Source: Chromera velia | Lineage: Eukaryota > Sar > Chromeraceae | NCBI GenBank assembly: GCA_018398765.1 | Contig: JAHBMJ010005775.1 | Span: 43,476-65,724, forward strand | Direction: 5' to 3' | DNA: 22,249 bases | Part shown: positions 2,155 to 22,249 of the stretch, in pieces | Numbering within the stretch: the first letter of the stretch is position 1 | Layout of the letters: each line of letters starts with the position of its first letter | Made by a program: the position numbers and the translations under genes | The notes under the pieces: generated by a model | Databases searched by the model: none | What the model was told of the DNA's origin: nothing | The model's input: only the letters and a program-made list of their open reading frames with translations

Positions 2155-2212
2155 CCTGCTCTCTCCTCTTCTTTCTCCTCTTCTTCTTTCTTTTCTTCCT
2201 CTTTTTTGTCCT
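2155..2212. repeat. Polypyrimidine tract
   Basis: Almost pure CT sequence made of TCTTCC/TTTCTC-type units, within otherwise non-coding DNA. The rest of 2213-2960 is AT-rich to mixed with no supported gene. It includes a short GGTGTA/TACACC hairpin near 2825 and a CACCAG repeat near 2881-2896. Confidence 0.55.
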
Positions 2213-2964
2213 CCGTTGTCATTTTATGTGGGGGGGTGAGCTAGGGGGTGAGTGAAGAAGAGAGCTAGGGTATGATGGGGCTGGGCTCTGAGCCTTGAGA
2301 TCAAGCCCTCACTTATCCTCACTTGCCCTTGCTCAGAGGAAAAATGCAAATTAAAAAAAGCCTTCTTTTGTTTTATTCTTTCTTCTTTTTCTTTTTTATG
2401 AAAATGTACCATTTGTGGTTGCTTTCTTCATGAGTTTGCTCCAAAGGGGCATCATGCAGTTTGAAGGTTTTATGAACCGTATAGGGACAGAACTGGACTA
2501 CAGTGCAGCACACAACTGGCGCCAAACATATTCAAACATTGGACAGCTGAAAAACGTTGCTTAAATTGAGAAAAGAAACTCAGAAAGAGACCGAAGTTAT
2601 GAGACAGTCAAAGACATATAGTCTTTAATTGTCATATTTTTTATTTTTGCTTTTTATCGCCTTTTCACTGATATTTCTAGTGATATTTTAAGTTGTTTCA
2701 TATAGTAAAAATCAATGTAGCAAATCTATATCATAAAAAGCTTTTAGGCCTTCATTGAGGCGCCTTTTGGCCGTTAAAAACACTAGAAATCAACCCTAAA
2801 ATCCTAGCTTTTATAGGGTAAACGGTGTACCTTATTTTACACCTGTTTTGCACTTGATTTAAGGTGCAAACTTGTTTTTGCACCAGCACCAGCACCTTAT
2901 GCACCTTTTCTCAGCCTTAGTATATGGGTATGTCTATATGTTTGTGTACGTCTGTATGTGTTAC

Positions 2965-3137
2965 AGTGTGTGTGTGTGTGTGTGTGTATGTATGTGTGTG
3001 TATATATATGTGTGTGTGTGTGTGTGTATGTGTGTGTGTGTATGTATGTGTATGAGTGTGTATATATGTGTGTGTGTGTGTGTGTGTATGTGTGTGTGTA
3101 GGTGTGTAGGTGTAGGTGTAGGTGTGTAGGTGTGTTC
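2965..3137. repeat. Long TG/TA microsatellite
   Basis: About 170 bp of (TG)n interrupted by TATG and TATATA units and ending in GTAGG-type units. The open frames over it on both strands (Cys/Val-rich on plus, Thr/His-rich on minus) are products of the repeat and not genes. It sits between the AT-rich left arm and the 3' flank of the minus-strand ATPase gene. Confidence 0.9.
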
Positions 3138-4602
3138 ATGTTTATGTCTATGTTTGTGTTTGTTGTTTACATGCATCAATGTTTCGATTTATATGGTCGT
3201 TCGCGGAGACGCCAGAAGCGAAAATAGAGTATGTACACGCGCGGATGCAACATAATTTGATTAATCAGTGTATTCGTCCATGTTGGTGTCTGATCAGAAA
3301 GATGGAATTGACCAAGTCATTCCTTCTTTTAGCGAAGTGGTGCTTGTCAATCAGTCTTCCTAGAAACAAACGACCATAAAATCATGTCAGCGTACTGAAG
3401 ACTACTTGAATCTAAAAGACTACAATTTTTAGTGTAAAAACTAGAATAATATAATTTCAAATTCTAGTAGTCTAGAAAACTTAGCTAGCTGGTAAGGCCT
3501 TACATATATATACTTTATACTTTGTAGTGCATGGCTTCTCTGCATGCACCCAGCTAGCCCTGCACCATGCATATTAAACTCATTCTCAAAGATCTTTCCC
3601 TCTCCATCATTCACTCCCGTCGTCTAGCCCGTCGTGAGGCTTGCAAGGCTCGTTCACGGTTGGAAGGCACGGAAGAATCAGAGGAGAGATTATCAAAACA
3701 TTGAAGGACTGTCCTTCAAACTGAGCGGCTCCTGCATGCATCTAGCTCTCGACTTACTTCCAATATGCATGAATGCAGGATCACGGGTCCTGTCCACCGT
3801 ACACGGTCAGGTTGAACCTCCCTCCCACTCATCGCCCTGATCCTTTCATGAATCAAAATTGTCTATGCTGCAAGCAACTTTCAACACAAATTCAGCCGAT
3901 GCAACTCAACAAAACCAAGGACACATTTGTAACCTTCTTTTGAAACTCTCATTGAACCTACTTATTGTAGCAGGAACAGCCCCCCCTATTCAATTTCTGT
4001 CTTCAATCCCCTTGTCACTTGAAGACCAGCACATATTCTCAAACCAACACGGCGAAGGGTAGCTAGCTCACCTCACGGGAGTCGATCAAGTCTTGACACA
4101 CGTTGCATGCAGAAGACACACATGCAGACAAAGCTCGAAAGAGAGAGAAAGACATGAAATACAGACACTGACAGGCACGATAACAGACTAGCTGAAAAGT
4201 CAATCTCCTTCACGACCGACCCATCCATCAAGAGACTTACCACGCCAACACGGAGGTGCGCAGGGAAGAAAGGAAGGAAGGGAGGCAGGCAGGAAGAAAG
4301 AAAGCGCAACACAGAGAAACAGCGACAAGACAGAACAGAAGAGACGCACGAACACATGATTTATCTTTGACCCTTTTTTGCTTGTTTGTTCCCCTTTGCA
4401 CGTCACCAGTTGAACAGACAGTCATGAAGAAGCACATGCAGGCACGCAAAATCCCTTCGCACCCCACCCCCCATCCCTCCACAAGATTTTGTTTGCTCCT
4501 TAAATGTCTGTCGGCGTTCCATTCACTGATCAGTCAGCATATCCATTCACTGATCAGTCAGCATACCATTTGAGAAAAACAAAAAAAAAACCTTCATTCG
4601 AT
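3138..4602 (-). other. 3' flank of the P-type ATPase gene
   Basis: I find no supported coding region here. On the minus strand it begins directly after the ATPase stop codon, so its right part should hold the 3' untranslated region, but I see no decisive polyadenylation signal. The plus strand is purine-rich at about 4256-4345 (GGAAG/GAAAG units), so the sense strand of the ATPase transcript would be pyrimidine-rich there, like many introns of this window; a 3'-UTR intron or longer pyrimidine tract is possible but unproven. Several GCATGC words occur (3543, 3735, 4104). Confidence 0.45.
4518..4565. repeat. 24-bp perfect tandem duplication
   Basis: Two identical 24-bp units, 4518-4541 and 4542-4565, each containing the palindrome ACTGATCAGT. 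They lie 38 bp downstream of the ATPase stop codon, so they are probably in its 3' UTR. The palindrome gives each unit a short hairpin. Confidence 0.85.
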
Positions 4603-5304
4603 TCAGGCCCCCCTCTTCCCGTACAGGAAGGGACCCGTTCCTCCCACACCTTCAAACTGCTGAACCCCCTCAAAATTGGTCGGCCGCCGTCCACCCTCAC
4701 CTCTGGCGGCGTTGTCAAGATCATCGAAGAAATCGATGTCCCTCCCCCCCTCGTTTTCTCCCTCTTCGTCAGTCGTACCGACTATTTTGGAGAAAACTGA
4801 ATCAACATCGTCATCCGCTGTGTCTTCAGATGAGGGGGTCAGCTGCTGAATCTTTTCAAGCGATGTCTTTGTCCCCCCCCCAATCACTTCAGGAGCAACA
4901 TCTAGCCCAGACTCTAAGTCAAGGATATTGGTAGGAACCACTTCGACCGACCTCTGGTTTTTCAGACAGCAACAACAGCGACGAGCGACAAAAGGGAGAA
5001 CCCCTGTGGCAGTCACCCACTTCAAGAAATCGGTGGTGAGGAAGGCCAAGATAGAGTAAAACCAGACAACCCCCCCCTTTTCCCAACCACAGCCCGACAT
5101 GGGAGCACCGCCCCCCAGCCGAGCGCCCGCAGGCCACAGAACTGCCACCAGAGTGGATGTCAGCAGAGCACAGCCCATAACCACGAGCACCGGGAGGGAG
5201 GCACCCCGCGTGCAGAGGTCTATAACTGCAAGCCTCTTTGTGCGAGCTGAGAGGAAGTTCAGCTGAAGGAAAATGGAGAGATTCAAGAAGAAACAAGCGC
5301 GCAC
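4603..5304 (-). CDS. ATPase last exon: TM region end and acidic tail
   Basis: Residues 796-1028. It follows a GCAG acceptor and opens with VRACFFLNLSIFLQLNF, matching the family's TM9 region, followed by a TM10-like segment LPVLVVMGCALLTSTLVAV. A cluster of cysteines (RRCCCCL) follows the last helices and could be a palmitoylation site. The tail is acidic (for example DEEGENEGGRDIDFFDDL) and ends GKRGA. It does not end in the plant YTV-type 14-3-3-binding motif. Tail function cannot be read from sequence alone. Confidence 0.88.
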   Translation of the reverse strand: MRACFFLNLSIFLQLNFLSARTKRLAVIDLCTRGASLPVLVVMGCALLTSTLVAVLWPAGARLGGGAPMSGCGWEKGGVVWFYSILAFLTTDFLKWVTATGVLPFVARRCCCCLKNQRSVEVVPTNILDLESGLDVAPEVIGGGTKTSLEKIQQLTPSSEDTADDDVDSVFSKIVGTTDEEGENEGGRDIDFFDDLDNAARGEGGRRPTNFEGVQQFEGVGGTGPFLYGKRGA

Positions 5305-8300
5305 CTGCAAGACAGAGAAATGAAGCAGTCAGTCTTCAAGAAACTCCAAGACTTCAGTGCTTTCTACAAGAGAAAAAGCGCGGCAAACAAGGAACGATGA
5401 ATTCAAAGAAGACAGAAAGAGCAGAGGGACGGGGCGCTCGAACAGACAGACAGACTGCCATCCGACTCAGAAACAAACGAAAGTAGACTCTCCCGAGTTC
5501 AGTAGAGAACATAAATGATCATCGGGTATGAATGAGCAGGTGTGTAGGAGATCTGAGTCAGTCGCTCTGTGCATCGCCACACAATTGTCGCGCTCTCATG
5601 TGATGGTGTCTGCCTCTCTCTCACCTCTGGGGTATCCGGCTCTTGGATGTGCCAGCCAGGCCACCAGCTGGAGTTGCCTGGAATCGAGCAGAAGAGCATC
5701 AGGAAGGAGAGGATCGCGGAGGAGAGACCGATCAGAAGCCCAACGGCCGTCGAGCTCGCAGTCTGCCAGGTCAGAGGCTTTTCAGACTTTGGCACCTTGT
5801 CAGTGCCTGAAGTCATGAGGGTGAAGTCATTCACACACGCGAGGAGCACAAGAGTCCAGATGGGCATGTCAAAATTGTCGTGCATCGAGGCGGCGAAGTA
5901 CGCAATGGCAATCACGCACGAGGAAGCGACTCGGTAAATTACGTACGCCTCGACTCTGAGGAAAATCTGCCGCGACACTTCGAGAGCGGTAACAATAGGG
6001 GCCAGCCCCTCTCCGAGAAGGAGAATGTCAGAAGCAGCCTTGGCTGCCTCTGTAGCCCCCTTGACAGCAACGCCCACGGTGGCAAGCTTCAGGGCGGGTG
6101 CGTCATTGACCCCATCCCCCGTCATGCCGACCTGGCGGCCTGTTGACGCTAGGGCTTTCACGACTCGAAACTTGTGCTCTGGAAACACCCCTGCCAACCC
6201 GTCTGCATTCACACACGCATGCGCAAGCGCATCGTCCACTGCCCCCGCGTCTCCATCCACCCCCCCATGCTCTTCCCAAAATTCAACCCCCTTAATGTCT
6301 GAACCCATACCCAGTCTCTTGGCAGTCTCTATAGCAATCGCCCTCTGATCCCCTGTGATCATCTTGACCTCTACACCCAGCCGCCTGGCAGACTCGATCG
6401 TTTGCGCACTGTCAGAACGGGGGGGGTCAGAAATGCAAAGAAAACCGACGAGCCGCCATGCTTCAGCCTCTTGGCTTGCAGGCGCACCTGTTTTGGGGAT
6501 GTGCCTCTTGTTTGCTGGGGTGGTGGCAGGACGCACGCACACCCCGAGGGTTCTGAGACCGCGTGAGGCTTTCTCATTGATGAGAGTATTCAAACGAGCA
6601 CTCATCACAGCGTCACCCTCACACACCATGTCACGAACAATATGTGGGGCTCCCTTTGCTATTTGAATGTGTTGACCTTCCGGGGTCACTGCCGTGGCAA
6701 TGGCCCGCTTGCTGACAGGGTCAAACGGAATGAAGTCAGTTACTGTGATGGCCTGCCTTTTTTCTTCGTCTGCAGACTCAACAATGGCAGTGTCAAGGGG
6801 ATCTCTGTCAAGACGCGCAGTCGCAACGCTTGCCAAGACCAGCAACTCCTCTGTGGAGACGCCCTCCTCTGGGGCGCACTCCTCCTTGTCGATCAACAGC
6901 TTATTCGCTGTCAGCGTGCCTGTCTTGTCAGAGCAGAGCACAGAGAGCCCTGCCATTTCCTCGATGGCAGAAAGCCGGGAGACCACTGCCTGCTCAGCAG
7001 CCATCCTACGTGCCCCCAATGCCAGCACAGAAGTCACGACCACAGGCATTGCTGCGGGGACGACGGAGGCCAGGATGATGGCTGAGACCTTCAAGCAGAG
7101 AAAGAATCCCTGCACGTCTCGGGTGTTGTTGGGGGAGGTCCACAGCTTGAACCAGATCGCGACCGCAAAGATGAATCCAACCAAAGTGATAATCCTGCAA
7201 ACAACATGAGCATGTCAGTATTGAATGGATACTCGGAACAAGAATCCCCGGTTCAGAGGCAACACAGACAGAAGTCCAAAGAGAAATCCGTCCATGGGAC
7301 GCGCAAGGGAGTCAGGGCAGGCAAACACAAGAGCAGCGGGAGTGAGGGACACGCGAAGGGAGGGATTCATGGCAGGCAGACACAAAAAAAAACGCATGGC
7401 GTAAACAGACTCATTATTTCGATTAGCGGCAGAGACTCACTCACTTGGCTATTTTGGCGAGAACAGTGCGAAGTGAATGCCTGTCCTTATCTGAATCAGG
7501 ACCGCAAGCGCGCCCGACGAGAAGAATAGCCTTGCCAAGGAACGATCGTTCACCAGTTTGCGTCACCCTCACGAGCGCCTCGCCCCTGACGACAGTTGCA
7601 CCTGCCATGACGCTCTGCCCAGCCCACTTGCATGCCGGGAGAGATTCCCCTGCACGCACAAGCAGATAGATCAATGAATGAAATGAAAAACTATACACGG
7701 CACGATAGGCAAACAAGACGCACACCTGCTCACCCATCCAGACGCCGGCGAGCCCCTTCGCCCACCCCCCCTTCAACACACGCGCGCGCACACTCACACA
7801 CACACACAAGCACACATTCTCTCTCTCCCTGTGTGAGAGAGAGAGAGAGAGTCGATCGAACAAAAGATCCAACAAACAAACCAGAGCGAGGTGGAGTCCA
7901 ATGGACTGAAAGAGGAGATGAGCAGGGAAAAAGGGAGGAACAACGAGCAGGAATCAGAAAGAGTGAGAGATGGAGAGAACAAGCGAGAAAGAGGTGGAGG
8001 GGTAACGATGAGAGAGAGAAAGAGAGAGTGAAAAGTTACAGACACATCCCCAAAGGACACAGTGCCTCAAAAAGGCGAAGAGAACAAACGGAATGGAGAT
8101 CTGACAAAAAAAAAAGCTCAGCAGAGACTTTGAGGTCTTCTCTCTCCCTCCCTCCCTCCCTGTAGGGCCACTCCAATTGCCCACCCAATTATTTACCTGT
8201 GAGTGCGGACTCGTCCAGGTCGAGGGAGTCTCTCTGAGGATCACCCAGGACAATGGCATCCGCAGGGACTCGAGCTCCGGGCTTCAGACTCAACTGAATG

Positions 8301-9776
8301 CACCGAGGGCGGAAAGGAGGGACATATTAATATTCTTTCAGCGAGAAACGATGCATGGATCCATGGGAGAACCACTTCACTTAAACAGAGGAACGAGTCT
8401 GATGCATGAATGACCTTGAATTCAAGACAAACAAACACCTCGAGAGATGCGTTGCCGAGAGAAAAAACATCCGCCAGTCTCCGCCTTCCCTGTGCCTCTC
8501 TCTCTCTCTCCCCCTCCCGCCCTCCCCCCCTCCCCCTGTGCCTGCTTTTCTTTCCAATGATCCCATTATTTTTTGAATGACCCAAGTTGTCTCTCGATAC
8601 AAGCCGACAAACTCCATCTTCTGGTGGCTATTTGCTCAGTGGGGAGCGGACGGGGTCCACGACATGTCGGCTCGATGCTCAGAGAATTCTTAGCTGTCGA
8701 TGATGAACATGCCAGACTCCTGATCGAATCGATGCATTGACTGACTGACTGACTCACTGACCAGATCTGCTGGGACAATCTCTCGGGCCGGGATAGATTC
8801 CCAGTTCCCATCTCGCTTGCAGTAGGCAGAGGGCGCAGCCATCGCTTCCATTGCTTGCTGCAAGGATTCACGCAGACAGGCCCGTAAGAGAAGGCGCATC
8901 AATCAAGGCTTGCATGACGGATGGCGATGTGTCAGAGAGCAGTTCTGATATTACTGTCGAAGTAAGAAGAAGGGAGCGGAAGCGGACACACAGGAAAGGG
9001 AGACGGGAGCTAAAGTGCATACACGCAAGGGGCATTCTGATGCGCGGTACAACAAAATGAGATTGGACAAGAAATGAGATGGAAAAAAGCGATACCAAAC
9101 TTCATCTAGGCGTATAAAAGCAAAAGGAGGTCTGCAAAATTGACAACTGCTCTTTGCGCGTTTCTTTCGCTGAAAAAGTCGGCGAAGACGACCAGGTTCA
9201 CCAAAAACAGGAGACAGCCAAAGGAAATCCAGTCGCATCTCCCAGACCTATCGGGAACAGATGCCGACAAAAGCGCAGCAAAAAGCAGAATCAGAGGCAC
9301 AAGTCCCAGGTAGCGACGCGCAATCTGACGCCACACCGGCTCGTCTTTGGCACACACCTGCATGCACGCACGCACAAAAAAAAAGCCATAAAAGCCTGAA
9401 TACTGTACACAAAAAGAAAGGATGCGGAAAGGAGAACAGAGTCACAAATGAAGACGAATCCCTGGGTACCTCCCATTCCAAGCAAATGATCTGTACATCC
9501 CAACTATACAGGCAATTCAATGTGCGCACATAGAACCGGCCGGACAGTGTACCACATCTAGCACTGACTGACTTCATTGAATCCGAACCTCTCCAGCTGT
9601 GCTTGTGCCTCACTAGAGCTCAAACCCCTCTCCGAGCTCCAATCAAGAAAGGAACTTGGAGAAAGAGAGGCATCGGGTGCTTCAGCTCGAAGTTTGCCGC
9701 CCATGGATTCTGTACGTGATTCTTGCACTTCAACGTCCTTTCCCTGACGAGGAGCAGCAGATGGGGCCGTCGACAT
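4603..9776 (-). CDS. Plasma-membrane-type P3A H+-ATPase, 7 exons
   Basis: Joined exons, in transcript order: 9776-9573, 9357-9145, 8857-8762, 8293-8197, 7649-7445, 7194-5625, 5304-4603; total 3087 nt, 1028 residues. It is predicted to pump H+ out across the plasma membrane using ATP. Landmarks: two hydrophobic helices around residues 88-135 (TM1-2); A-domain TGES at 203-206; TM4 with VVPAAMPVVV; phosphorylation motif SDKTGT with Asp361; nucleotide-domain KGAP at 452; DPPR at 528; TGD at 552; TGDGVNDAP around 630-638; TM6 VND with Asp728, the position of the essential carboxylate in P3A pumps; further helices, then an acidic C-terminal tail. The M4 and SDKTGTLTANK signatures separate it from Ca2+ and Na+/K+ pumps. 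TM5 reads VIYRVASS, as I recall for protist pumps, and lacks the Arg seen mid-TM5 in plants. The ATG is the first in frame after a stop at 9894-9896. The weakest junction is the donor at 9144 (GTCAAT), chosen by alignment. H+ specificity is inferred from family. Confidence 0.93.
5305..5624 (-). other. ATPase intron 6
   Basis: 320 nt, donor GTGAGA, acceptor TTGCAG, phase 0. No repeat array at the donor beyond GA-rich sequence. Nothing else is recognised inside. Confidence 0.85.
7650..8196 (-). other. ATPase intron 4, microsatellite-rich
   Basis: 547 nt, donor GTAAAT, acceptor GTGCAG, phase 1; it splits the Gly codon of the TGES loop. On the plus strand it contains (CA)n at about 7787-7815, (CT)n at 7818-7829, a short GTGTG link and (GA)n at 7835-7851, then a long purine-rich stretch (7900-8030) and a CT/CCCT run at 8139-8161. 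No coding potential is supported. Confidence 0.85.
8294..8761 (-). other. ATPase intron 3 with donor array
   Basis: 468 nt, phase 0, acceptor ATTCAG. Read 5' to 3' on the minus strand it opens with six consecutive GTNN units (GTCA GTGA GTCA GTCA GTCA GTCA). The plus strand has a CT/C-rich run at about 8496-8539. The flanking exons give a continuous DLLSLKPG A-domain segment, which fixes both splice sites. Confidence 0.85.
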
Positions 9777-10633
9777 TGCGTTCGCACTGTTCTCGCGGCT
9801 CCTTGAAGATCCTTGCAATTCACGTCGGGAGTGTTCTTTCCAGTGCTCAGACGACTCGGCGCGAGACGGGAGGAGTTTGCAGTTTATTTGCTGTCACAAC
9901 TGGTGGCTGGAGAGATGTAGTGTACACACTGATGAGCTGACGCTCACTTTTATATGAATAATAATACCCCCCTTTCTTCTCAAGTTTGAAGAACCGAATC
10001 ACCGGCCGTTTTTCAAAATTAACGGACGGCATGCAAGTGGCAGAACAGTAACGATTGAACAGCTATATAGCTAGCGCACGGGTAGCCGCGCGCGGTGCGC
10101 CGCGGGTCCGGCCGGGCCGCTCGGTCGGCGCGCCGCGGTCGGCCGCGGCCCGCCGCCCGCCTTCCCAATGTTCCCATATATGTCTTCGATCCCGCGCGCG
10201 CGCGGGCGGCCGGGGCCACGGTCCCCGCCGCGCACATGCATCCATAACATATCGATAACGCATGAAAGCCAGGCCATGGTCCGTCTCCATGGAGAGAGAC
10301 TGACATAGACTGACAGAGCGAGCCATTCGATCCGAAAAATAGAAGTCGGCGACAGTGAGCAATTCTCCTGTTGAAATATACGTGTGCAATCAAATGCGGT
10401 CTAATTTATTGATCGACATTCCAAGCAGTAACCCGACACACATGTCTTGGTAGGTAAGACCGCAACAGTCAGTGTGGCGAGAGGTACTTGTGGAGCGTGA
10501 ACTGTACAGATTTCCGGCCCGCCCAGGGGATGAGCTGTGCCGTGCACTGTGTAGCCCTGCAGCCACTCACCTTGCTGGACTCGACTTCTGCCCCCTTTTA
10601 GCATTCTGCAAGTACAGATAAGCCAGAATCTCA
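9777..10633. promoter_or_regulatory. Divergent promoter region, ATPase and VPS35
   Basis: The two start codons are 857 bp apart and face away from each other, so both promoters and both 5' UTRs should lie here. Visible landmarks: a 12-bp palindrome AGCTATATAGCT near 10060 containing a TATA-like core, a CCAAT word and a CATATATG word in the AT-richer gap at 10164-10180, and the GC-rich block listed separately. In-frame stops upstream of both ATGs (9894-9896 for ATPase, 10619-10621 for VPS35) limit N-terminal extension unless a 5' intron exists. Transcription start sites cannot be placed from sequence. Confidence 0.7.
10073..10240. promoter_or_regulatory. CpG-dense GC island in shared promoter
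   Basis: Between 10081 and 10160, 73 of 80 bases are G or C by my count, with very dense CpG. A second block at 10190-10233 contains a CGCGCGCGCGCG run that could adopt Z-DNA. An AT-richer gap of about 30 bp separates them. The island is flanked by ordinary sequence and lies about midway between the divergent starts. It encodes nothing recognisable: the open frames over it are Arg/Ala/Pro-rich in all directions, as GC-rich sequence gives by chance. Confidence 0.75.
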
Positions 10634-12874
10634 ATGGCTCAGAGACCTGTTGAACAGGAGCAGGAGAGGCTGCTCGAGGAGGCGATCGCCGTCGTCAAGG
10701 AGCAGGCATTCTTCATGAAAAAGGCCATCGTAAGTCAATTCTCTGGACCCGCTCGAAGTATCGGTGCTCTGCTTCAGCCAGCCCCGACACGCCCTTTCTC
10801 TGCCTCCCCTCCCCCTTCCGCTGCAGGATAATGACAATTTGCGAGACTCGTTGAAGCACGGAAGCAATATGATCTGCGAGCTAAGAACCTCCCTCCTATC
10901 TCCAAAAAACTACTACGAACTGTGTTAGTCCCTTCTCATGCATCGTTGTCCCTTTGTTGCAGTGCATGCCGGGTCTTGCTCTGATTCTGGGCCGAAAGCA
11001 TGTAGAAAATGCGCCAGCCGTCTCCAGTCCTTCCTCCTTCAGTGTTTCAGGGCATCAGTACGAAACCGAAACACACCAGAAGACGAGGCAAGACGATTCT
11101 GTTAATCTCTTTCTAAGTGTGCCGCTGCCCCGAGCACCTTCATTCGTTCTTTTGCTTCTCTCCTCCGCTGCCGTCTATGACTCCCCATCTGCTTTGTTTT
11201 GCCTCACACTCTTCCCTCTCTACTTCCTCGTTCTTCTCATACTGCCATTCCTTTCCCTCTTTCTTCCTTGCCTCCTGGCCTCGCTTGTCACTTTTTCTCG
11301 GCAGTGCCTCATCTCGATCTCCCTGTCCCCCCCGGTTTCTACTTCCTCCTTCGATGTCTCATTTTTTTCCGCAAGTAGCGCTTTGTCTGGCTCGCACGTG
11401 CATGCGNGGGGGGCGGGGGGCGGGGGGCGAGAGAGAGAGAGAGAGAGAGAGGACGTGCGTATGTGCGTCAAAGCGGACTTTCGTGCGTTTGTGTGTGTGG
11501 TGTGGTGCGTACCAAACCTTTCCTTCTCGACTACTGGCTCGAGTAAAATTAATTCGTGCGGGGGAAATTTATGGCCTTCTTTCTGTGTATGCTCTGCTGT
11601 TCTTTTTTTGTTTTCTTTCAGACATGCACGTTTTCCAGGAGCTCCAGCACCTCGGAAGCTTCTTTCAGGAACCGGCGAGGGTGAAGAGGAGAATGTCCGA
11701 GCTGTACGAGTCCGTGCAACATGCGGGGAATATTCTTCCGAGGCTCTACCTTCTGATTACAGTAGGGGCAGCCTACATCAAATCCAGGGAGGCCCCGGCA
11801 AAGGACATTCTGGCCGACATGACAGAACTGTGCAAGGGAGTGCAACACCCGATGAGAGGCCTCTTCCTGCGGTCCGTCAAGCAACGACGCACTCTCTTTT
11901 GTTTTACCTGCATGGCAGGGGCGACATGGGTAGGAAGAACTCTGGAAGAACCTTCCCTCCGTCCCTCCCTCTGTTGGGCGTCTGTCTGTCTACCCATGCA
12001 GTGAGTGTGGCACGAGTGTGTCTCTGATTTCTTTCCGTACTGAGTCTCTCTCTTTCCTTCTTTCTTTCTCTCTTTTTTCTGCAGTTACTACTTGTCGCAA
12101 ATGTGCAAGGACAAGCTGCCAGACGTAGGATCCGAGTTTGAGGGGTGAGTGGGTGGGAGGGTGGGAGGGTATGTCAGTGAAGTATCTGATGAGGCAATGG
12201 ATACGCAGAACAGATTTTAACTCCCCCTTCCCCCATCTCCATCAGGCTCAGCCATTTGTCCTGCATGCGGTATCTTCTCTCGTCTTTTACTTTCTTCTGA
12301 TTTCCTCTTTGTTTGCCCCCCTTCCCCCTCCCTCCAACAACTCTATTTTTTCTTTCTTGTCTCTCTCAGTTGTCTTGTTGCCTTTTCTTCTCTCTCGGGG
12401 CGGGTCCGTCCTTTGCTTCCTCCCTCCCAAGATCCCCTTCCCCCGTCTTCTTCCCCGCTCACTTGCCTGCTCCTCTCGCTCCCCCCTCCCTTTCTACTGC
12501 ACTCTGTTCGTTCTCTTATCTTTCCCTCACGTTTTACATTCCTTTTTGGACGGGGTCGATCTCACCGTGTGTCGAATTGTTTGTCCAAGCGCCGGCCGTC
12601 TCTTCTTGTTGGTCTTTGTTTTTTGTTTTGGGCAGCGAGCTTTGAAGTTTTGCTGTCTGTCCCGTCCTTTGTCTGGCTCAAAGCGAGTGCACAGGTACGT
12701 GCATGCATTTATGCAACAGGTAGGTTTTCAATTCATTCTGCATGTTGTCTGTCTGTCTCGCTCAAGGCCTGGAGCTCTGGTACCCTTCCACTGAGAGAGC
12801 GCGCCAAAAGAAGAAAGGAAAAAGTAAAAGAGAATAAAGAAAGAGAAAAAGGAAAAGAAAAGACGATATAGTCT

Positions 12875-12911
<37 letters not shown>

Positions 12912-15900
12912 AATTTTGCCTTTCTTTCTACAGGGAAGACAGCGGGTCTTTAGAGGACGCCTTCGACTTCCTTCTGACCAACTTTGCCGAGAGCACAAGG
13001 CTCTGGGTAAGAATGCAGCACCAAGGAGCTGTGAAAGACCGGGTTCGCAGGGAAAGGGAGAGACTGGATCTCCGGGTTCTCGTGGGTGCAAATCTGGTCG
13101 GTCAGTCAGTCAGTCCCTTTTTTGAGAAGGAAGCCTCCAAATTTGTTGTTTGAGTCGTGCGTGCTCCAGTCTTCCTTTCGGTGATTGATACATTCTGTAG
13201 CGCTTGAAGAGGGGGGGGATTCAATCTTGAACTTGGCTTCTGTGTGTTACAAAATCAATGGAAAACAAACGTAGATTGACGTTCCTCTTTCCTTCAAGAA
13301 CGAATTTTCTCAAGAGGTTTTTTTTCTGCATGACAAAAAGGCCAGGCAGTAAAGAGTGGCATGGGTGGGTTATGCTAGGTGGCTTTAGAGGTCTTCTGCA
13401 TTCTCTCTCTCTCTCTGAATGCTTCCCCGCCTTGCTTTCCTGCTTTTCTTCCGTTCCTTCCCTCCATTCCTTCCCTCCTTCTGTCCCTGTTTCCATTGTT
13501 CTTCCCTTCGGCCCTTTCCTTCCTCTCTCCCTACCTCCATCTCCCCCCCAGATTCCCCCCTTCCTTCCTTGCCTTCCTTCCTCCAACCTCAGTCTGCCTT
13601 TGGCATGTATGCATGCACGTGAGAGCGATAGAGGATGTTCTCATAAATGTACTCGGACCTCTTTGTTTTCCTTGGGTGATCTGGTTTCTTTCTTCAGGTG
13701 AGGCTGTCTCAACTGGAAGGGATGACGGTCGAGTACTACAAGGACACCGCGCTGCCCAAAATTGCGGAACAAGTCGTTGTGTGCAAGGACGCTCTCGCAC
13801 AGCAGTATTTGCTGGACTGTATCATTCTGGGTCGGTCGGTCGGCTGATCCTGTCCTCCCTCCTTCTGTCTTGCCGCCCACGAATTCTGCCCCGCTACCTC
13901 TGTCGGGATCAGACCGTTGAATCGCTTGCTCTGCTTCCTCGGTCCCTTCATGAGTTGAAAGAAAACAGTGCTGTGCCTGCTGTCCTTCGCACCAGGCGTC
14001 TCTCTCTTTTACTCTCCCCGCTGCTTGTAAATGTTGTCTGAAGAAAAGGGGGGAAAGAAACCAGAAAAGTCTGACAGACGACAGAGAAGAGAAGAGACGG
14101 TGTCGTCCATCAGTCAGAATGTAAGGGTGTAGCAACGCGCGTCAAAGTGATCCAAAAGGATTTGAGGAAAGAAAAAACGAACGAGGATTTGCCCCCACAC
14201 ATTTTTGTCCCCCTCTTCTTTTCGTCGATTGCGCCACGCGTGATTGATTCATCCTCGACATTTGTGACTGTCGGTCTTCTTTCAGTGATGCTTTTGTACG
14301 TACCTTCTTTCTTTCTTTCTTTCTTTGTTGGCTCCTCTCTCTCTCTCTGGGTTTCATTCAGTGTTCTCCGACGAGTGTCACCTCGCGAGCCTGGATCAAT
14401 TTCTCTCCCTGGCAATGAAGGTCCAGCCTGGAGGTAGGTCGGTCAGTTAACTCAGTTCCTCCCTCCCTCCCTTCCCTGTCTGTCTCTGCTCCCTCCCGTT
14501 CGAGGGTCTGCCTGCCTGCCTGCCTGCCAAGTTGAGTTTCGAAGTGTTCGAAGAGAGCGAAGGCGCTTAGATGTGCATCGTTTTTTCAGTGTGGGTACTG
14601 AACGCCTGTCTGTGGCTGTCTCTGTCTCCCGCAGGAGTCTGTATGTCTGTCTCTGTCTCTGTTTTTCACCTTTTGCTTCTCTCTCTTTTCCGCACAGGGC
14701 TCCTCATCCCAGTTGACTGACTGCACAATTTGTTTTCTTTGTGCCTCCACGTTTTTTCGACGACTGCATCGGCGCGTTTTTGATTTTATTCTCTTCCTAT
14801 ACTGTCAATCCCTGTCGGCCTCTCTTTCCTGCCTTCAGGCTTTTTCCGCTTTCAACTCAGACACTCACTTTACTCTCTTTCCACTCCCCCCCTCTCTTCT
14901 CTTAATTGCATTGCATGGTGGGTAAAATGCAGTCGACCTGAATCCCGTCCTGGTCAACTTGATGACTAGGCTGTGCAACTTCTTGAAACAAAATCCTGAG
15001 GTAGGTAGGTAGGTAGGTAGGTAGGTGGGTGTGTCATTCAAATCTGTCATTCTTCAACTTTCGAAGAGGGCTGCTCGAGGGTAAACTATCGATCGGGTTC
15101 AAATCGGAAGAAGGGGAAGAGTTTGCAGCCACAAACGATTAGAAAGAAGGTCAAGGTCACAATCTTTCTGTCGCCGCAAAGCCTCTTTTCCTTTCTCCCT
15201 CCTTGTGTTCCCGATCCGGTTTGCGCGTCACTTTTTTGCAGGCTCTTCCCGGGGGGACCGATCTGTTTGATCTCTTTCGAACGCACATAGATGAGGTCGT
15301 CAGCAGGCCCCTCTCCACAGGGGCAACTGCTGGATCCTCCCCGCTGGGCCTCGGTGACTCCTCAACCTCCTCTGCAACTGCAAGTCAGTAAGTAAGTAAG
15401 TCGACGAGCAGCGCGTGAAGAAAGGATGGATTGAGACACAAAAGCGCGTTTATTTGCGCGTGATGAATTCTGGGTCGGGTTCCGTCCCTTCGACTCTTCT
15501 TTCCCTCCCCAACTTGTCATACCTTTGAAGGAGTCTGTTGAACCGTTTTGATTCACTGAGCTTCTTTTCTGCTGTAAGCCGACAGTAGCATGAATGAGCT
15601 AGAGGCAGACCACATGGTTACAGAGAGGTGCTTCTCTCCTTCCCCGTGCAGACGGTGCGGGTGGGTCTAACCCCATGACGCTTCCTGCGCTTCTTGAGCT
15701 TCTCTGCTCGTTCCTTCACTTTTGCCTGGAACTTTTCCCGGAGAGGACTGAGTACATCGACCATGTGCTAGGATCTGCAGCCACCCTTGTTCAGAGAAAC
15801 AAAGCAGCGTTAGAGGCCGAGGAAGAAAGCGACCCTGATGGACCAGCAGAGGGGAGGGGAACTGCAGTCGGAGCGGTTGTGGAGCTGTTGGCAGCCCCCT

Positions 15901-16686
15901 TGAGTAGGATCTCCCTGTCGATTGTCGATCTTGCTCACTACCCTTCGCTGATGAATTGCCTCTCCTTGAGAGTCCGGAAGAAGGTGGCTGCCTCTATGGT
16001 CGCCGGTGTCGTCGCATCGGAAGCAACGTTGTCGGAGCCTCGCCCGGTTGAGAGATTCTTCTTATTTGTGTCCCCTTTGGTTTCCGATGAGAAGGAGGCA
16101 GGAGCGCCTGCCGCCCCCCCCCAGACAGAGGCGGATAAAGAGGCGTTCGCAAAGGAGCAGGAACAAGTAGCGCGGGTTGTTCACCTGATCAAGGTCGGTC
16201 GCAGGACCTGCAGTCGTCCAACACGTATGAAAGCATGCCTGAGGCTCCCAGGCAGGAAGCCGATTGATGCGTGCGTCAATTCAGACTGAGCCTTCCCGTG
16301 CAACCCCTTCCGTCCTGTTCGCACTGCACTGTATGACGACGGCCCTGCCTTCTCTGTCATGTTTTGTGGAATCAGAGTTGGCTGGTAAAATGCATAGTCA
16401 GCATGTTGTTCCTCCCCCTTTCTCCTGCCTGCAGCACGAAGACACGGATGTGTGCTTCCAAATGCTCAGGACCGCGGCAAATGCCTTCAAGAAAGGAGGA
16501 CCCCACAGGCGGACGTTTGTGCTCCCCCCTTTGGTCACGAGGGCCCTGCAACTTGTGCCGTTGGTGCATGCTCGAGAGCTGCACGCTGCGCAAGGAGGCG
16601 GTGTGCAAGCACCAGCGTCGAGCGTCAAGAAAGTTCTCCAGTTCGCACACACGGTGGGTGGTGGGCAGCTGTCGGAATAAAGCATT

Positions 16687-16770
<84 letters not shown>

Positions 16771-17082
16771 TGAGTCTGTAGCTGCTGCCCTCAATTCGCA
16801 GTCGGAGGATCCATCACACACAAAAAGACTCGATCGGTCTTTCAGATCTCTCCTACTTCTCTGGCTCGCGTTTTTGAATACTCTCCCCTGGCACTTTGCT
16901 TCATCACGCGATTCATTTCTTGGATTCCCTTCCCTTGCAGACATGCACGGAGTTGGTGCAGTGCAATGCTGAGTTGGGGCTCCGGTTCTTTCTCCACTGC
17001 GCCATCACGGCAGACAAAGCGGACTTGGCACAACCTGGGGCCTTCGAGCCGATCTGCTACGAGGTCTGTTGAAGCACCCACC

Positions 17083-17115
<33 letters not shown>

Positions 17116-19736
17116 CAGAGAAGCAAAGCGCGGCAAACGGATTCATTGATTCATGCCTGATTCCTCTAACCCATTCCGCTTTTCCTTTTACAGCTCCTCG
17201 GGTTGTAGCCCCGCCCCCTTTTTTTCTTTCTGTAGCTTGTCTCCTTTCTCTGTCACCCCGCTACTGTCTCTTCCTGTCTGTTTTTCCTATCGATCCTGTT
17301 GTTCGCATTATCCCTCCTCTCCCTATCTCCTGCAGTTCCTCACTCAGGCTTTGGTGTGCTACGAAGAGGAGCTCTCGGATTCACGGGCCCAGTTTCAAAG
17401 TCAGTTTGTTCGGAAGGTCCCCAAAGGTCTAGCTGGTTTGAGAAAGAGTCCCTCTCATCTCATCAACCCAACCCAAGCTTTACAAGTGTAACGTGCAGGT
17501 TTTCTGACTGAAAATGTGAGTCTCACAACTGAGGGCTGTGCCTTCCTGTAGCGTGACGGCTGGTCGGTGGTAATCTGCACAAAAGACTGTCTGGACGTCC
17601 AGAGATCTACGCCAAAAATGGATGCGCTTAGCTTCGTCCTTTCATTCTGTCTGCAGGCCTGACCCTCTTAGTGGGCACAATGGTGTCTGCAATCCACTGC
17701 CTCGAGAACGATAACTGGGACACAATGGTCAGTCAGTGCGCTGAAGGAGACTGTCAGTGCGCTGAAGGAGACTGTCGATTCATTTACCGGTCGCCTGTTT
17801 CCGCTCTTCCTGCTGTTCGCCTGAGTGGCATTTCCTCTTTTCTCTCCTATCATGAGAGAGACCCAAATCTTTTTTTTTTAGTCTGGCGAGCTGATTTTCA
17901 TTTGCTCTGCCTCAATTGGCCATGTCACTCTGTGCTGCAAGCAAACTCGATGTGTGGTCCGCTTCTGCTCTTTTTGGTTGATCTTCACAGGCAGCGAAGA
18001 TGGCCCAACACTCGACAAAGCTCTTGCGGAAACAGGACCAGTGTAGGGCGCTTCTCATGGCGAGCACCGTCTTCTGGGGAAACGTAAGAGGGGGTGGTCG
18101 GGGAGGGGAGGGTGCTGCAGTTAGGGCTTGCTTGATATCTGGATTTTCAAATCTGTTTGCTAGCGCGTGTGTTCTGATCATTGCTGAGGAGAGAAAGGAA
18201 AAGTCAAGCAAAAAACAAGTTCTCTTTGGCCTGGGTGGGTAACCTTTGGTATCATTCCATCAGTTTCTCTCCCCTCACAAATTGAAATTCATGCGCTCTT
18301 CAACCCCGATTGCTCTTTGATTCTGTAAGTCTCGCCCGCTTGCTTACTTGCTATGTCCTTCCTGTGCAGGCCCAGAGACGAGACGCTGTGCGAGTGACCG
18401 AGTGCCTTCAGAAGTGCCTTCGCATTGCGGGTGAGGCAACCATGTACACGTCTGTGGTTTTCTGCTGCTTTCCATGTGCTCTTGCATGCTTACCCTTGGC
18501 GCTCGCTCCAAACTGCTCCTGGCAATTTCTCCTTCTTTTTCCGTACTCCCAGTGTTCCTTCTACTCACTCTTTTCTCCCTCCAGTTACCCTAGCTGCTCG
18601 GCTTTCTGACGCACAGCACACGCAAAACTCCTGACGACATGCATGCAGCATCCTGTGGAGCCTCTGTCACTTTTAGTTTAGCACTCTGTCTGTTGCAGAC
18701 ATGGGAATGTTGAACGAAAAACCGAAGGCGACAACAGAGGCCTAGGTGTGTCCCGAGATTCCCTTGAGAAAAGAGAACTGCATGTCCTGTCCTGTCCTGT
18801 CCCCTCTTTGCAGATGTCGCCATGCAATCGTCCAACGCCCATGCAATCCTCTTCGTGGACATTCTGGACAAGTACATCTTCTACGTAGAGCAGAAGTGTG
18901 ATGCTGTCAGTCGATTTGTCGATTCGTTTCTGTCACACACGCGTTCACTTTTCTTCTACAACAAATAGTATCATTTGTGGAAGACAACGTATCATTGTGT
19001 TTTTAAGACTAAGATGCTACACGCGTGTCTTTTGAACAGAAATAATGCTGGGAGCTCGACACTTCTTCTCTTGGTCCTCATTGTGTACGCTTTCTTGGAA
19101 CCTGCATGCTGTCTGTGTGGTTTGATGTTTCTTTGCAGATCGACCCCCAGGTTGTGGGTCAATTGATCTCTCTGTGTGCGGAGAACTTGGCCTTCTGTGA
19201 TTCAGGTGCATGGGAGGGGGGGACATTGGTAGTAAGGCTTTTTGCCTTCATCTGTCATTCTTCGCCTCTGTCCGTCTCCTCTCTTCAGCTGTCTGCCTCG
19301 ACTCCTCCCATGGGTCCCGCCAAAAGCGCCCGAATGGTGCGCGCCGAAGGAGGCACGAGGCGCATGGAAGAGAATGGACAGAAAAAACAGGAACAAAGGA
19401 ACGGAAGGAAAAGAGAGAGGGGGGGGGGGAAGAAAGAAACCTCCCTCGCTTGCTCGTGGCGTGCTTGTGTGTGCGAATATTCGCAATGACTGAGCTGACA
19501 GAAGGTTTGACACTCCTCTTTGACTGCCTCTTTCTTTTTTGTTTTCACTCACATTTTCTGCCTTGGATAGCGTTGTGCTGTCGCGAGGCTTGGTATCCAA
19601 AAAAGGAACCAGCTAGCTGTTTGAATCTTGTGTGTCTGCAGAAACCGCAGAGGATGCCCGCAGACAATTCAAGGCTGCGCTGACAGACGTACAACGGGCC
19701 AGTGGGGATCCGCAAAATCCATTTTACGGTTGGTAG
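10634..19736 (+). CDS. VPS35: VPS35, retromer core subunit, 19 exons
   Basis: Exons: 10634-10729, 10827-10923, 11622-11871, 12085-12144, 12934-13096, 13698-13830, 14362-14433, 14933-15000, 15242-15383, 15652-16193, 16435-16653, 16941-17063, 17336-17399, 17657-17727, 17991-18083, 18370-18430, 18814-18905, 19139-19205, 19642-19736; total 2508 nt, 835 residues (human is 796). VPS35 is the alpha-solenoid that binds VPS26 and VPS29 and selects cargo for recycling from endosomes. Family landmarks in order: [19 protein letters not shown] (residues 50-70), the VPS26-binding PRLYLL at 104-109, [42 protein letters not shown], a central helical region, then [23 protein letters not shown] and YIFYVEQK. 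A low-complexity Ser/Thr/Gly linker at the exon 9-10 junction adds length. Unlike human, the C terminus ends NPFYGW. The ATG is the first after an in-frame TAA at 10619-10621. All junctions are GT-AG, phase-consistent and supported by alignment. Confidence 0.96.
10924..11621 (+). other. VPS35 intron 2, Y-block then G/GA-block
   Basis: 698 nt, donor GTTAGT, acceptor TTTCAG, phase 1; it splits the Tyr codon of YYELYM. It has a long CT-rich stretch (about 11110-11380), then an ambiguous base, three G6 tracts and a GA repeat. An open frame runs through it into exon 3 but is a pyrimidine-tract artefact. Confidence 0.88.
11407..11452. repeat. Ambiguous base, G6 tracts and (GA)n
   Basis: Position 11407 is N, the only ambiguous base I noticed. 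It is followed by three G6 runs separated by single C (11408-11413, 11415-11420, 11422-11427) and then a GA dinucleotide run to 11452. The G tracts could form a G-quadruplex on the plus (sense) strand, and such sequence is hard to read, which may explain the N. It lies inside VPS35 intron 2, so coding is unaffected. Confidence 0.85.
12145..12933 (+). other. VPS35 intron 4, Y-block, R-block, CTGT repeat
   Basis: 789 nt, the longest intron; donor GTGAGT continued as GTGG GTGG, acceptor CTACAG. A CT-rich block (about 12270-12560; 52 of 60 bases are pyrimidine at 12301-12360) is followed by a purine-rich block (12793-12866) and a (TCTG)n repeat at 12875-12912 just before the acceptor. No exon is supported inside. 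Confidence 0.87.
13097..13697 (+). other. VPS35 intron 5 with donor array
   Basis: 601 nt, phase 0, acceptor TTTCTTCAG. It opens with five GTNN units (GTCG GTCA GTCA GTCA GTCC). A CT-rich tract occupies about 13398-13590. The exon join restores [10 protein letters not shown], so the donor must be the first GT. Confidence 0.87.
13831..14361 (+). other. VPS35 intron 6 with donor array
   Basis: 531 nt, phase 1. It opens GTCG GTCG GTCG, has a purine-rich stretch at about 14038-14102 and a (TTCT)n run at 14305-14326, and ends ATTCAG. Confidence 0.87.
14434..14932 (+). other. VPS35 intron 7 with donor array
   Basis: 499 nt, phase 1. It opens GTAG GTCG GTCA GTTA and ends ATGCAG. A (CTGC)n run lies at about 14508-14528; the remainder is CT-rich. 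Confidence 0.87.
15001..15032 (+). repeat. GTNN donor array of VPS35 intron 8
   Basis: Six perfect GTAG units (15001-15024) followed by GTGG and GTGT, eight 4-nt units in all, beginning exactly at the exon 8 boundary after the Glu codon GAG. Only the first GT keeps the phase needed by exon 9 ([12 protein letters not shown]), so the used donor should be the first unit. Confidence 0.9.
15384..15403 (+). repeat. GTNN donor array of VPS35 intron 9
   Basis: Units GTCA GTAA GTAA GTAA GTCG start at the exon 9 boundary. Reading phase demands the first GT (phase 1), although the second unit GTAAGT would be a stronger match to the usual donor consensus. Confidence 0.82.
16687..16761 (+). repeat. (CT)n-(GT)n-(GA)n hairpin-forming microsatellite
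   Basis: A CT tract (16687-16713), a GT tract (16714-16737) and a GA tract (16738-16761) in direct succession inside VPS35 intron 11. CT and GA are complementary, so the transcript can form a stem of more than 20 bp with a UG-repeat loop. The tract begins 34 nt after the donor. Confidence 0.9.
17084..17112 (+). repeat. (CT)n microsatellite in VPS35 intron 12
   Basis: Pure TC repeat of about 29 nt, beginning about 20 nt after the GTCTGT donor. A CACAG follows it directly but is not used: the correct continuation of the protein is at the acceptor before 17336. Confidence 0.88.
17732..17773 (+). repeat. 21-bp perfect tandem duplication at a donor
   Basis: Two identical 21-bp units (17732-17752 and 17753-17773), each beginning GTCAGTGCG, lie 4 nt inside VPS35 intron 14, whose donor is GTCAGTCAGT at 17728. 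The duplication therefore multiplies the donor-like GTCAGT word: copies at 17728, 17732 and 17753. Confidence 0.88.
18431..18813 (+). other. VPS35 intron 16
   Basis: 383 nt, donor GTGAGG, acceptor TTGCAG, phase 1. It contains a short TGTCC tandem run at about 18783-18801. An alternative CAG at about 18698 was not used because the exon following 18813 joins directly to give a continuous helical segment ([11 protein letters not shown]). Confidence 0.82.
19206..19641 (+). other. VPS35 intron 18
   Basis: 436 nt, donor GTGCAT (the weakest of the gene), acceptor CTGCAG, phase 1. It has a CT-rich part (19245-19320), then a purine-rich block (about 19366-19438) including an 11-base G run at 19419-19429. 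No exon is supported inside. Confidence 0.83.
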
Positions 19737-20250
19737 GCCATTTACCTCGGTGCCCGTCTTCCGGTAAACACGCCTACCCCCAAAAGTTGACTGTTTGCCT
19801 TACTGTGGCTTCGGTGGTCTTCCTTCATCTGTCTCTGGATTCAATTTTTCTTTCTGTATGAACACAAAGCATTGTGCTGCTTCGTGTCGGTCGTCCCGTT
19901 TCCCCTTATACGTGCGTGTGTGCCTTTACATGTGTACAAGCTCCCTCAGAATGTGTGGCAACTCCACAAGCCTCATCACCCTAAGAGCCACCTGCAGAGT
20001 TTGATCTAGCTCTTCCAACAGATACCCTTAGCGACATCGCGACATCATTGTGGGCTTTGCTGCAAGTTTGCAGGAATGTCGGTTGAACGACTACTGGGGG
20101 CGCATGCTTCGATTCTGCGGTAGCGAAGTGCATTTGCGAGGGCACAATGCTGCTACACATTCTGTCTTGAACCTATACTGCGTACGGGGCCGCACAACTG
20201 GATTCATGCTTTGAACAATCTGATCTTTCCGACAGGGCGTCACCCGATTC
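19737..20250 (+). other. 3' flank of VPS35
   Basis: Follows the VPS35 TAG stop and should contain the 3' UTR. It is mixed-composition sequence with no supported ORF and no clear canonical polyadenylation hexamer near the stop. The cleavage site cannot be placed. Confidence 0.5.
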
Positions 20251-20867
20251 TCATTCTAGTTCTCAGAATCTCATTCTAAACTTGAAAGGACCTCAGAAAG
20301 GTTTTTGCTAGGGTTTTTGTTGTTATTACTCCTTTAATATGCATTCTACCAAAGTTGACGTTGTTTCCCAAGCTTTTACGCATAGCATAGCATTGAGTTC
20401 CGCCATGTTAAAGGCATGTTTCCTTTGATAAAAACTCACCGGTAATCTTCTAGGCTAGCTTTTAAGTGAAGATATCTTTTTTTATGATTACAGTGAAATC
20501 ACTTTCACAAAATTGTGTTCTCTATAGTGCGTTTTAGTGCGTTGTTCACAACAACGTGATTGCAAAACTACCCCCCTGTCACTAGCTATCGACTAAAACT
20601 TTTGAGGAGATTCAAGTTTAGCCTAAGTTCTGCGCTTTTCACCTATAAAGTTCAAATCTATAATTCCGAAGTTCTGCACTAAGTCAATCTTTACTAATGT
20701 TCAATACCACAGTATAACCATACCTTGTTACACCTTGTCCGACCTTGTTTTACCTTGTCTTACATGTATTTTCCCACTTAAATGTCATCGTCATGCACTC
20801 TTATCAAGGGCTTCATTCTTAAAAATGCAAATGATGTTCAAATTTGAAGGGCCTTTTCTTGTAGTAA
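20251..20867. other. AT-rich intergenic DNA
   Basis: Non-coding AT-rich sequence resembling the left arm of the window. The only ordered structure I see is the 10-bp-period repeat at 20721-20760, listed separately. Confidence 0.5.
20721..20760. repeat. Four-copy 10-bp ACCTTGT array
   Basis: Four consecutive 10-bp units, each containing ACCTTGT preceded by one variable base and followed by two variable bases. The period is exactly 10 bp, one helical turn, so all copies face the same side of DNA. It may be a protein-binding array or a decayed minisatellite. Confidence 0.8.
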
Positions 20868-21089
20868 CACGAAGACCCCAAGCCTGGCAACGCTCTAATC
20901 TGTTTCTTACTTCTCTTTCTGCATTTTGTTGACTCTCTACGAGATGCAGAAGATAAGATGATGAAGCTACAGAAAAAGAAGAAGATAGAAGAAGAAAAGG
21001 GAGAAGAGACATCAACAACAACAGAAGAAGATTGCGACACTGCAACTGCATTTAAAAAAAGACTTGTACAAGATGAGAAAGAACGCTAG
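20868..21089 (+). other. Possible short coding remnant, Lys/Glu-rich
   Basis: A 222-nt stop-to-stop open stretch with no ATG until two adjacent Met codons about halfway. Its second half reads as a charged Lys/Glu-rich segment (for example KMMKLQKKKKIEEEKGEE, then AFKKRLVQDEKER) ending at TAG. This could be a fragment of a coiled-coil coding exon or just a GAA-rich purine tract. There is no domain, and I cannot assign a gene. Confidence 0.15.
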
Positions 21090-22249
21090 CAAAAATACTG
21101 AAATCTGACAGTAAGGCTTTCTCCAACAATTTGTGCATGTGCGTATGGATGCTTGGAACGCATGTACATGCACAGCTAGAGTATATCCATGCATGTATCG
21201 ATCGCGGATGGCTCGAGCTGCGCGCGTCTCGCGCGTTGACATCGCCGTGCTGTGGCGACTTCGTCGTATTGATGTTTTGCGGCCCTCGGCCACAGTATCC
21301 TTCGAAGTTCTGCACCACTTACCTCAAAGCACACTCCAAAGCTAACTTAAACTTCTACAGCAAAGTTCAAGACTATTCCAAACTTCTGCAACCTCAGTTC
21401 AAGGAGTCGATAGTGACAGGGGGGTATACAAAACCTTATGTAAGACTGACATGACTCAGTGTTGGCCCAAACTCGTTGGCCCTGTTGGGACCGATCGGTA
21501 GGCTAGTTGACAGACAGTTGGAGGTCTGACTCCATACATAGATTAAGAGGAGTGTCAGTCAAGTACCAAGGACAATCATCAGGCGCACACAACGATCACT
21601 GACGGAAACGTTTCCTTTCCTTGCAGCACATCGGTATACACTGTAATTCTATGTGCAGTCAGGGGCGAACGCATACTCAGATAGCATGCAGGCACGGTAG
21701 AAATCGACGCTGACGTTGTGATAGAAAGGTGGGCCCGAATAGCAAATGTTTCATATGTATACAACCGTACCGCATAATCAGTGAAACGCGTGCATGCCGT
21801 GCCGATGCGCGTATCAGCAAAATGACTGACCTATCAGTGTGCACATCCTTGCAGTACAAAGTTTGAGAAGAAACGCCTCAGTCCAGAGGTAGACGGATGA
21901 TGTACTAGCATGTGTTTGACAGACTTACGTGTATGATGTGGGTAACAAACGTAAAAACGTATTGCTAGCCTTTAATTTCATCAATCACACTCTTTGGGTG
22001 TGAGGATTCACATCAATCCATCAATCACTGCACGCTATAGAATGCGATAGGCCTGCACACATGCCGGTCGGGGCCGATTAACAGGCAGTGCAGGGGTGGC
22101 GCACTGCTTGCACCACTACTAAGTCCACTAGGCCCGACTAGGGACGAGGCTGCCCCGCGATACAGGCAAGTCGGATGGTAGGTGTGAACTGAGGTGGTTC
22201 ACAACAAAGACTATCATTGTAAGTTAATTATTCCAAAAAGTTTATTTTT
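21090..22249. other. Intergenic DNA, right edge
   Basis: No gene is supported. The base composition is more balanced than in 20251-21089. Items seen: GCATGC words at about 21685 and 21793, a 13-bp word CGAAGTTCTGCAC near 21304 shared with about 20668, and a 7-bp-stem hairpin at 22085-22107 (GCAGTGC, 9-nt loop, GCACTGC). Confidence 0.45.

Follow-up and report, generated by a model that had tools for sequence, protein, structure and literature searches.

The locus described here raises a simple question: why do so many introns of Chromera velia start with a GT dinucleotide that is repeated every four bases? The window, which is the whole stretch of 22,249 nucleotides that was analysed, contains two divergent genes. 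In each of them the exons join into a single open frame and the ends have been checked:

10634..19736, plus strand: VPS35 gene (retromer subunit), with 19 exons and 18 introns
4603..9776, minus strand: P-type ATPase gene, with 7 exons and 6 introns, 1027 residues

Their identity is clear from Pfam: Vps35 is matched with an E value of 3.4e-128 by the first 303 residues of one protein, E1-E2_ATPase with 2.5e-39 by the first 376 residues of the other. All 24 introns have GT-AG ends. Counted from the exon edge, the consecutive GTNN units in VPS35 introns 1–18 are 2, 2, 2, 3, 1, 3, 4, 9, 5, 2, 2, 2, 3, 3, 1, 1, 2 and 1; in ATPase introns 1–6 they are 3, 1, 6, 1, 3 and 1. Ten of the 24 introns have at least three units and 17 have at least two. 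The longest array, with nine units, is found in VPS35 intron 8. The arrays with three or more units are the following:

12145..12156, plus strand: VPS35 intron 4 donor array, 3 units
13831..13842, plus strand: VPS35 intron 6 donor array, 3 units (GTCG three times)
14434..14449, plus strand: VPS35 intron 7 donor array, 4 units
15001..15036, plus strand: VPS35 intron 8 donor array, 9 units (six GTAG, then GTGG GTGT GTCA)
15384..15403, plus strand: VPS35 intron 9 donor array, 5 units (GTCA GTAA GTAA GTAA GTCG)
17400..17411, plus strand: VPS35 intron 13 donor array, 3 units
17728..17739, plus strand: VPS35 intron 14 donor array, 3 units
9561..9572, minus strand: ATPase intron 1 donor array, 3 units
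8738..8761, minus strand: ATPase intron 3 donor array, 6 units (GTCA GTGA, then GTCA four times)
7433..7444, minus strand: ATPase intron 5 donor array, 3 units

These numbers differ a little from those of the first-pass annotation, which had reported at least 11 introns with three or more units (one too many) and about 18 with at least two. It gave eight units to VPS35 intron 8, where there are nine, and five to VPS35 intron 5, which has a single one. Its counts were right for VPS35 introns 9 (5), 7 (4) and 6 (3), and for ATPase introns 3 (6), 1 and 5 (3 each). The excess of arrays which it had noticed does stand. As a chance control we kept the first six bases of each intron and redrew the remainder from its own dinucleotide frequencies: in 500 runs only 1.2 introns reached three units on average, with a maximum of five, compared with the ten observed.

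Other features of the window are worth a mention. Inside VPS35 intron 4, at positions 12737–12929, there is a repeat of about 150–190 bases, perhaps a SINE-like element; in the rest of the genome it has at least about 40 longer matches, which are 84–94% identical. On reading the sequence we have also seen, next to the genes, a direct repeat some hundreds of bases long, at about 211–640 and 1210–1590, and, between the two genes at about 10080–10220, a short stretch very rich in G+C.

Are the arrays a peculiarity of these two genes? An independent sample was obtained from the kinesin motor and chaperonin genes found in the genome (177.8 Mb in 4040 contigs). Introns were placed with a purpose-written spliced protein-to-DNA aligner, which scores all GT and AG alike, and we retained an intron only when its donor outscored all others tried within 25 bases by 4 half-bits or more. 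An initial 173 kinesin introns, together with those of a second run, were reduced to 117 by flank score and margin, and then to 107 by requiring a YAG acceptor and a length of 80–1500. These 107 introns (86 from kinesins and 21 from chaperonins, identical introns being counted once) come from 38 locus records (L032–L087), which partly overlap, some being the same gene, and which represent a subset of the kinesin and chaperonin matches. Together with the 24 introns of the window they form a pooled set of 131.

In the sample, 81 of the 107 introns have at least two units, 34 at least three and 12 at least five; the longest array has 14 units. The same chance control gives 5.8 introns with three or more units (maximum 15) and 0.07 with five or more. 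The frequency of GT in the register of the array declines with distance: 0.76, 0.38, 0.32, 0.25 and 0.17 at positions +5, +9, +13, +17 and +21. Out of register it is only 0.00–0.07 throughout the same stretch of the 107 introns. On the exon side, GT is found at position −4 in just one of the 107, so that the arrays, as the first-pass annotation had claimed, do not extend into the exon. We conclude that the GTNN arrays at donors are real, and that they are found above chance outside the window in two further gene families.

It might be thought that the arrays are an artefact of misplaced exon ends, which we consider extremely improbable. Exon boundaries are derived here from protein alignment and reading frame. 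Furthermore, the leave-one-out profiles are incomplete, as the same kinesin gene may persist under another overlapping locus identifier, and a common profile was used for L085–L087 and for the comparison of paralogue sites. Against an artefact we have the equal scoring of all GTs by the aligner and the margin by which rival donors were rejected. The share of introns with three or more units is also stable, 26–31%, in six filter settings which range from 170 unfiltered introns to 43 strictly filtered ones, and the chaperonins alone show it in 6 of their 21 introns.

The composition of the arrays gives a first indication of their nature. Arrays of at least three units are present in 44 of the 131 pooled introns. 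In these 44 arrays the most common unit is GTCA (78 units), followed by GTCG, GTCT, GTGG, GTGA, GTAG and GTGC. Only six of them are perfect repeats; the other 38 are mixtures of GTNN units. Their appearance is that of tetranucleotide repeats which are young and in decay. Perfect tetranucleotide tracts of at least 12 nt begin within the first three bases in 14 of the 131 introns, while 0.68 would be expected from their density in the intron interior. The first base of the unit is a point against a purely mutational reading: G is conserved in 30 of 34 cases, somewhat more often than the bases of the three other columns (24, 24 and 22).

We add some observations on the sequence of both intron ends. 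The base at donor position +3 is most often C (69 of 131, T in five), which gives GTCAGT, although canonical U1 genes would prefer a purine there. The acceptor TGCAG is unusually strong: of the 131 introns, 89 have TGCA at −5 to −2 and 15 have TGCATGCAG or TGCCTGCAG at their acceptor end. No array like that of the donor was found on the acceptor side, where 9 of 131 introns end in two identical tetrads, with 6.5 expected.

Repeats of four bases are in fact abundant in this genome. In 214 kb, window included, we have found 302 perfect tetranucleotide tracts of 12 nt or more, together with 131 of dinucleotides and 14 of trinucleotides; a Markov control gives 3.2 tetranucleotide tracts. The same tendency is apparent when each sequence is compared with itself at a lag of four bases. 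Intron interiors have a self-match of 0.38 (34.6% when perfect repeats are masked); near acceptors (0.434) the value is as high as near donors (0.429). Values in other non-coding sequence are 33.7% in positions 1–4500 of the window, 34.1% in 9900–10600, 32.7% in the flanks of the U1 and U6 genes and 33.0% in those of the LHC genes. The coding exons of the window show 0.261 and Markov-shuffled introns 0.270. One non-coding region of the window, 19800–22249, has no excess of four-base periodicity (0.271), which counts against a mutational reading. Thus four-base duplication is strongest in introns and extends to most of the other non-coding sequence examined, but it spares coding exons. It may be noted that LHC proteins are present in this genome.

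In our opinion the arrays are probably short tetranucleotide repeats, i.e. microsatellites, which are born at the splice donor: their origin would be mutational and they would not represent a new splicing signal. Tandem duplication of four bases and slippage would be frequent in introns and in much other non-coding DNA. A donor GTNNGT already represents one and a half units of a four-base repeat. Selection for splicing would hold positions +1, +2, +5 and +6, so that the seed at the donor should never decay, while seeds in the interior would. Duplications of the seed which spare the exon would push the older units inward, where substitutions may erode them. If duplication acts on such a lasting seed, the arrays should begin exactly at the exon edge and fade with distance. 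An array inside the exon should be absent because a four-base insertion there breaks the frame. Slippage of the donor in replication was one of the explanations offered in the first-pass annotation; it is supported by the dominance of tetranucleotides, by the four-base periodicity and by the simulation described below, which gives most of the excess.

The influence of the seed can be followed directly. Leaving out units that start with GTGT, a third GT is found at donors in 23 of 34 cases after a perfect two-unit start, in 18 of 61 after an imperfect one and in 7 of 33 when there is no GT at +5. Interior GT sites rank in the same way, but with lower frequencies: 16 of 44, 32 of 162 and 114 of 1534. 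The donor appears to be special by a factor of about 1.5 to 3 over the interior, in the manner of a better seed. The first-pass annotation had named as a refutation of its observation that donor arrays are no commoner than GTNN runs elsewhere in introns; this is not the case, as donors exceed interior sites.

The same figures bear on a different explanation, according to which the additional GT units are selected: overlapping donors of low grade would recruit U1, or another factor which binds GU, more efficiently, and the first of them would then be chosen. We find it unlikely, even if several observations go in its direction. At an equal seed donors are above interior sites, with uncorrected probabilities of 0.011 for perfect seeds, 0.15 for imperfect ones and 0.011 in the absence of a seed. 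The commonest donor, with C at +3, mismatches canonical U1, so that help could be useful. Long arrays are also more numerous than in our simulations. On the other hand, the majority of sampled introns (73 of 107) have only one or two units. Weak first donors are not accompanied by more units: the mean U1 score is 2.68 in introns with at least three units, compared with 2.70 in those with two (p 0.95) and 2.87 in those with fewer than three (p 0.32). Later GT columns are not significantly better kept than the NN columns: in the third unit after a perfect two-unit start GT is kept in 54 of 68 cases and NN in 46 of 68 (p 0.17). This comparison was restricted to perfect two-unit starts and used instead of one conditioned on the previous unit being GT, which leaned towards GT and was dropped, as it is biased by its own condition. 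Finally, most of the excess is reproduced by a neutral simulation.

How far can mutation at a permanent seed account for the numbers observed? A static model, in which the copy process of the intron interior is run once from the first six bases of each donor, was rejected: it gives 17.0 of the 44 arrays (maximum 30 in 1000 runs). General periodicity without a lasting seed is therefore insufficient, and the result leans on the persistence of the seed. We have carried out a forward simulation with substitutions, small random insertions and deletions, de novo duplication of four bases, and gain and loss which depend on the repeat. Its rates were chosen from a first grid of 12 settings by comparison with the intron interior, without use of the donor counts; this fit is approximate, and the functions used for the rates are ad hoc. 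At the donor the exon was fixed, selection acted on +1 to +6 only and base frequencies were those observed in these introns.

With 17 settings, 12 of which were picked after the first outcome was known, the simulation gives 34.8–43.7 introns with at least three units per 131 (44 observed) and 13.0–20.5 with at least four (19 observed). Introns with two or more units are too frequent, 106.7–110.3 compared with 98, while long arrays are under-predicted: 4.8–10.2 compared with 15 for five or more units, 1.2–3.3 compared with 8 for seven or more. When selection on +3 to +6 is removed, in one setting, arrays of at least three units drop to 7.2. The same models also give too few long runs in the interior (0.7–1.8% of positions, 2.4% observed), so the shortage of long arrays is due in part to a poor fit of slippage. 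In the simulation an ordinary donor under ordinary selection suffices for the bulk of the excess. The longest arrays, from 5 to 14 units, could also be above the neutral model because additional GT registers are useful to a machinery whose commonest donor, GTCAGT, mismatches U1 at +3: they would serve as a landing strip in which the first unit is resolved through its contact with the exon. This is an improbable addition in our estimate.

The splicing machinery appears to be conventional. A search with Rfam gives three U1 matches, of which one is above threshold and the other two are weaker. Two of the three begin with AAACTTACCTGG, and both copies with a complete start have the canonical donor-pairing ACUUACCU; the third (L011) is without that end. 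U6 is found in seven loci above threshold, and the single copy that was read has the canonical ACAGAGA in the sense strand. The idea that U1 and U6 recognise several units at once, also put forward in the first-pass annotation, thus finds no support, either in these genes or in the third-unit columns discussed above.

Within the 44 arrays, the first unit has strictly the best match to U1 (CAG|GTRAGT) in 35 cases; it is tied in eight and worse in one. As the first unit with the exonic bases before it is the best match in most arrays, canonical U1 should prefer it. It had been claimed that reading phase forces the use of the first unit; with the same acceptor this holds for the GTs at +4 and +8, whereas a shift to +12 leaves the phase unchanged. 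As read from the sequence, splicing at +12 would introduce an in-frame stop in two introns, VPS35 8 and 9, but in VPS35 intron 7 and in ATPase intron 3 it would add no more than four residues. We infer that cells use the first unit and that the later units are neutral.

Paralogous genes inform us on the origin of the arrays. We have compared 100 kinesin introns at 73 sites, of which 15 are common to two or more gene copies (one of the 15 is common only to the close pair L088/L089). Introns at the same site differ: 14 units against 2, 8 against 1 and 5 against 1. Sharing of a site makes little difference to the presence of three or more units: 12 of 42 introns have them at shared sites and 17 of 58 at unique ones. 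These results bear on the suggestion that the arrays are a relic of the origin of the introns, left by the insertion of introners or by repair which gave rise to introns with repeated ends. The exact position of the arrays at the intron edge would agree with it, and invasive intronic elements have been reported in Amoebophrya, an alveolate (PMC7789003). Nevertheless the arrays differ at the same site and have a similar frequency in shared and unique sites, and among the 8515 pairs formed by the 131 introns there is not one in which the alignment covers half of the shorter member. Only 25 pairs match at all (E 1e-4), over 21–66 bases among the matches listed. A relic of intron birth, also among the proposals of the first-pass annotation, is not supported and seems very improbable to us.

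The mutational origin which we favour should leave traces in recent insertions and deletions. The two kinesin-like gene copies L088 and L089, in different contigs, are 87% alike including their introns and are useful in this respect. Four bases is the commonest length of their indels (6 of 20), and three of these six are near copies of the adjoining bases. Their donors, read by eye, have equal numbers of units in this one close pair. In the other 11 sequence pairs we have found 56 indels and none of them has four bases, which counts against a mutational reading.

The biochemical cause of the four-base bias may lie in a weak or missing MutS-beta repair, or in TOP2-type breaks with four-base overhangs which are filled in and joined. 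MutS-beta (MSH2-MSH3) is described as the guard of tetranucleotide repeats (PMC13238251), and the overhangs of TOP2 breaks are reported to have four bases, so that fill-in and joining lead to four-base duplications (PMC11477040). There are five MutS loci in the genome. MSH2 (C1317, 59%) and MSH6 (C3611, 57%) are clear; C3485 has 92–99 bits with all four queries, while C2838 and C3475 are weak. MSH3 is the best query for C3475 only, by 0.7 bits. No locus is clearly MSH3 in this assembly, which is possibly incomplete; a loss of MSH3 is only suggested.

If our interpretation is right, any short functional motif whose sequence has a period of its own can serve as a permanent nursery of microsatellites, and mutation bias alone can provide about a third of introns with an array which appears to be designed and phase-locked. 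This reasoning extends to any conserved motif with internal repetition. The genome is in addition a natural experiment on the choice, by the spliceosome, of the first among up to 14 overlapping donors.

Several known systems are related to these arrays. No account of such donor arrays was found among the matches listed from the open-access literature. The closest case are the delta-4 tandem donors (GYNNGY), reported in human for 47% plus 5% of 113,356 constitutive exons (PMC2423196). They share with our introns the second GT exactly four bases downstream, which we find in 81 of the 107 sampled introns and in 17 of the 24 in the window. They differ in that about a third of the introns sampled here have runs of 3 to 14 units, of which the later ones are presumably not used in splicing. 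Introner elements are also a widespread peculiarity at intron ends; in the present case no sequence is shared along the introns and the arrays vary at the same site of paralogues. Tetranucleotide microsatellites and instability of the EMAST type, related to MSH3 and MutS-beta, have in common with the arrays the four-base unit and a mutational origin (PMC13238251). EMAST is a tumour state, whereas the arrays described here are seeded and phase-locked at a selected site, and they are lasting. The end-joining duplications of 2–4 bases initiated by TOP2 are similar in that a tandem copy of four bases arises where none existed; they have been described for yeast and cancer (PMC11477040), while here TOP2 is a candidate cause. 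The arrays can be considered a variant of two known objects, microsatellites and delta-4 tandem donors.
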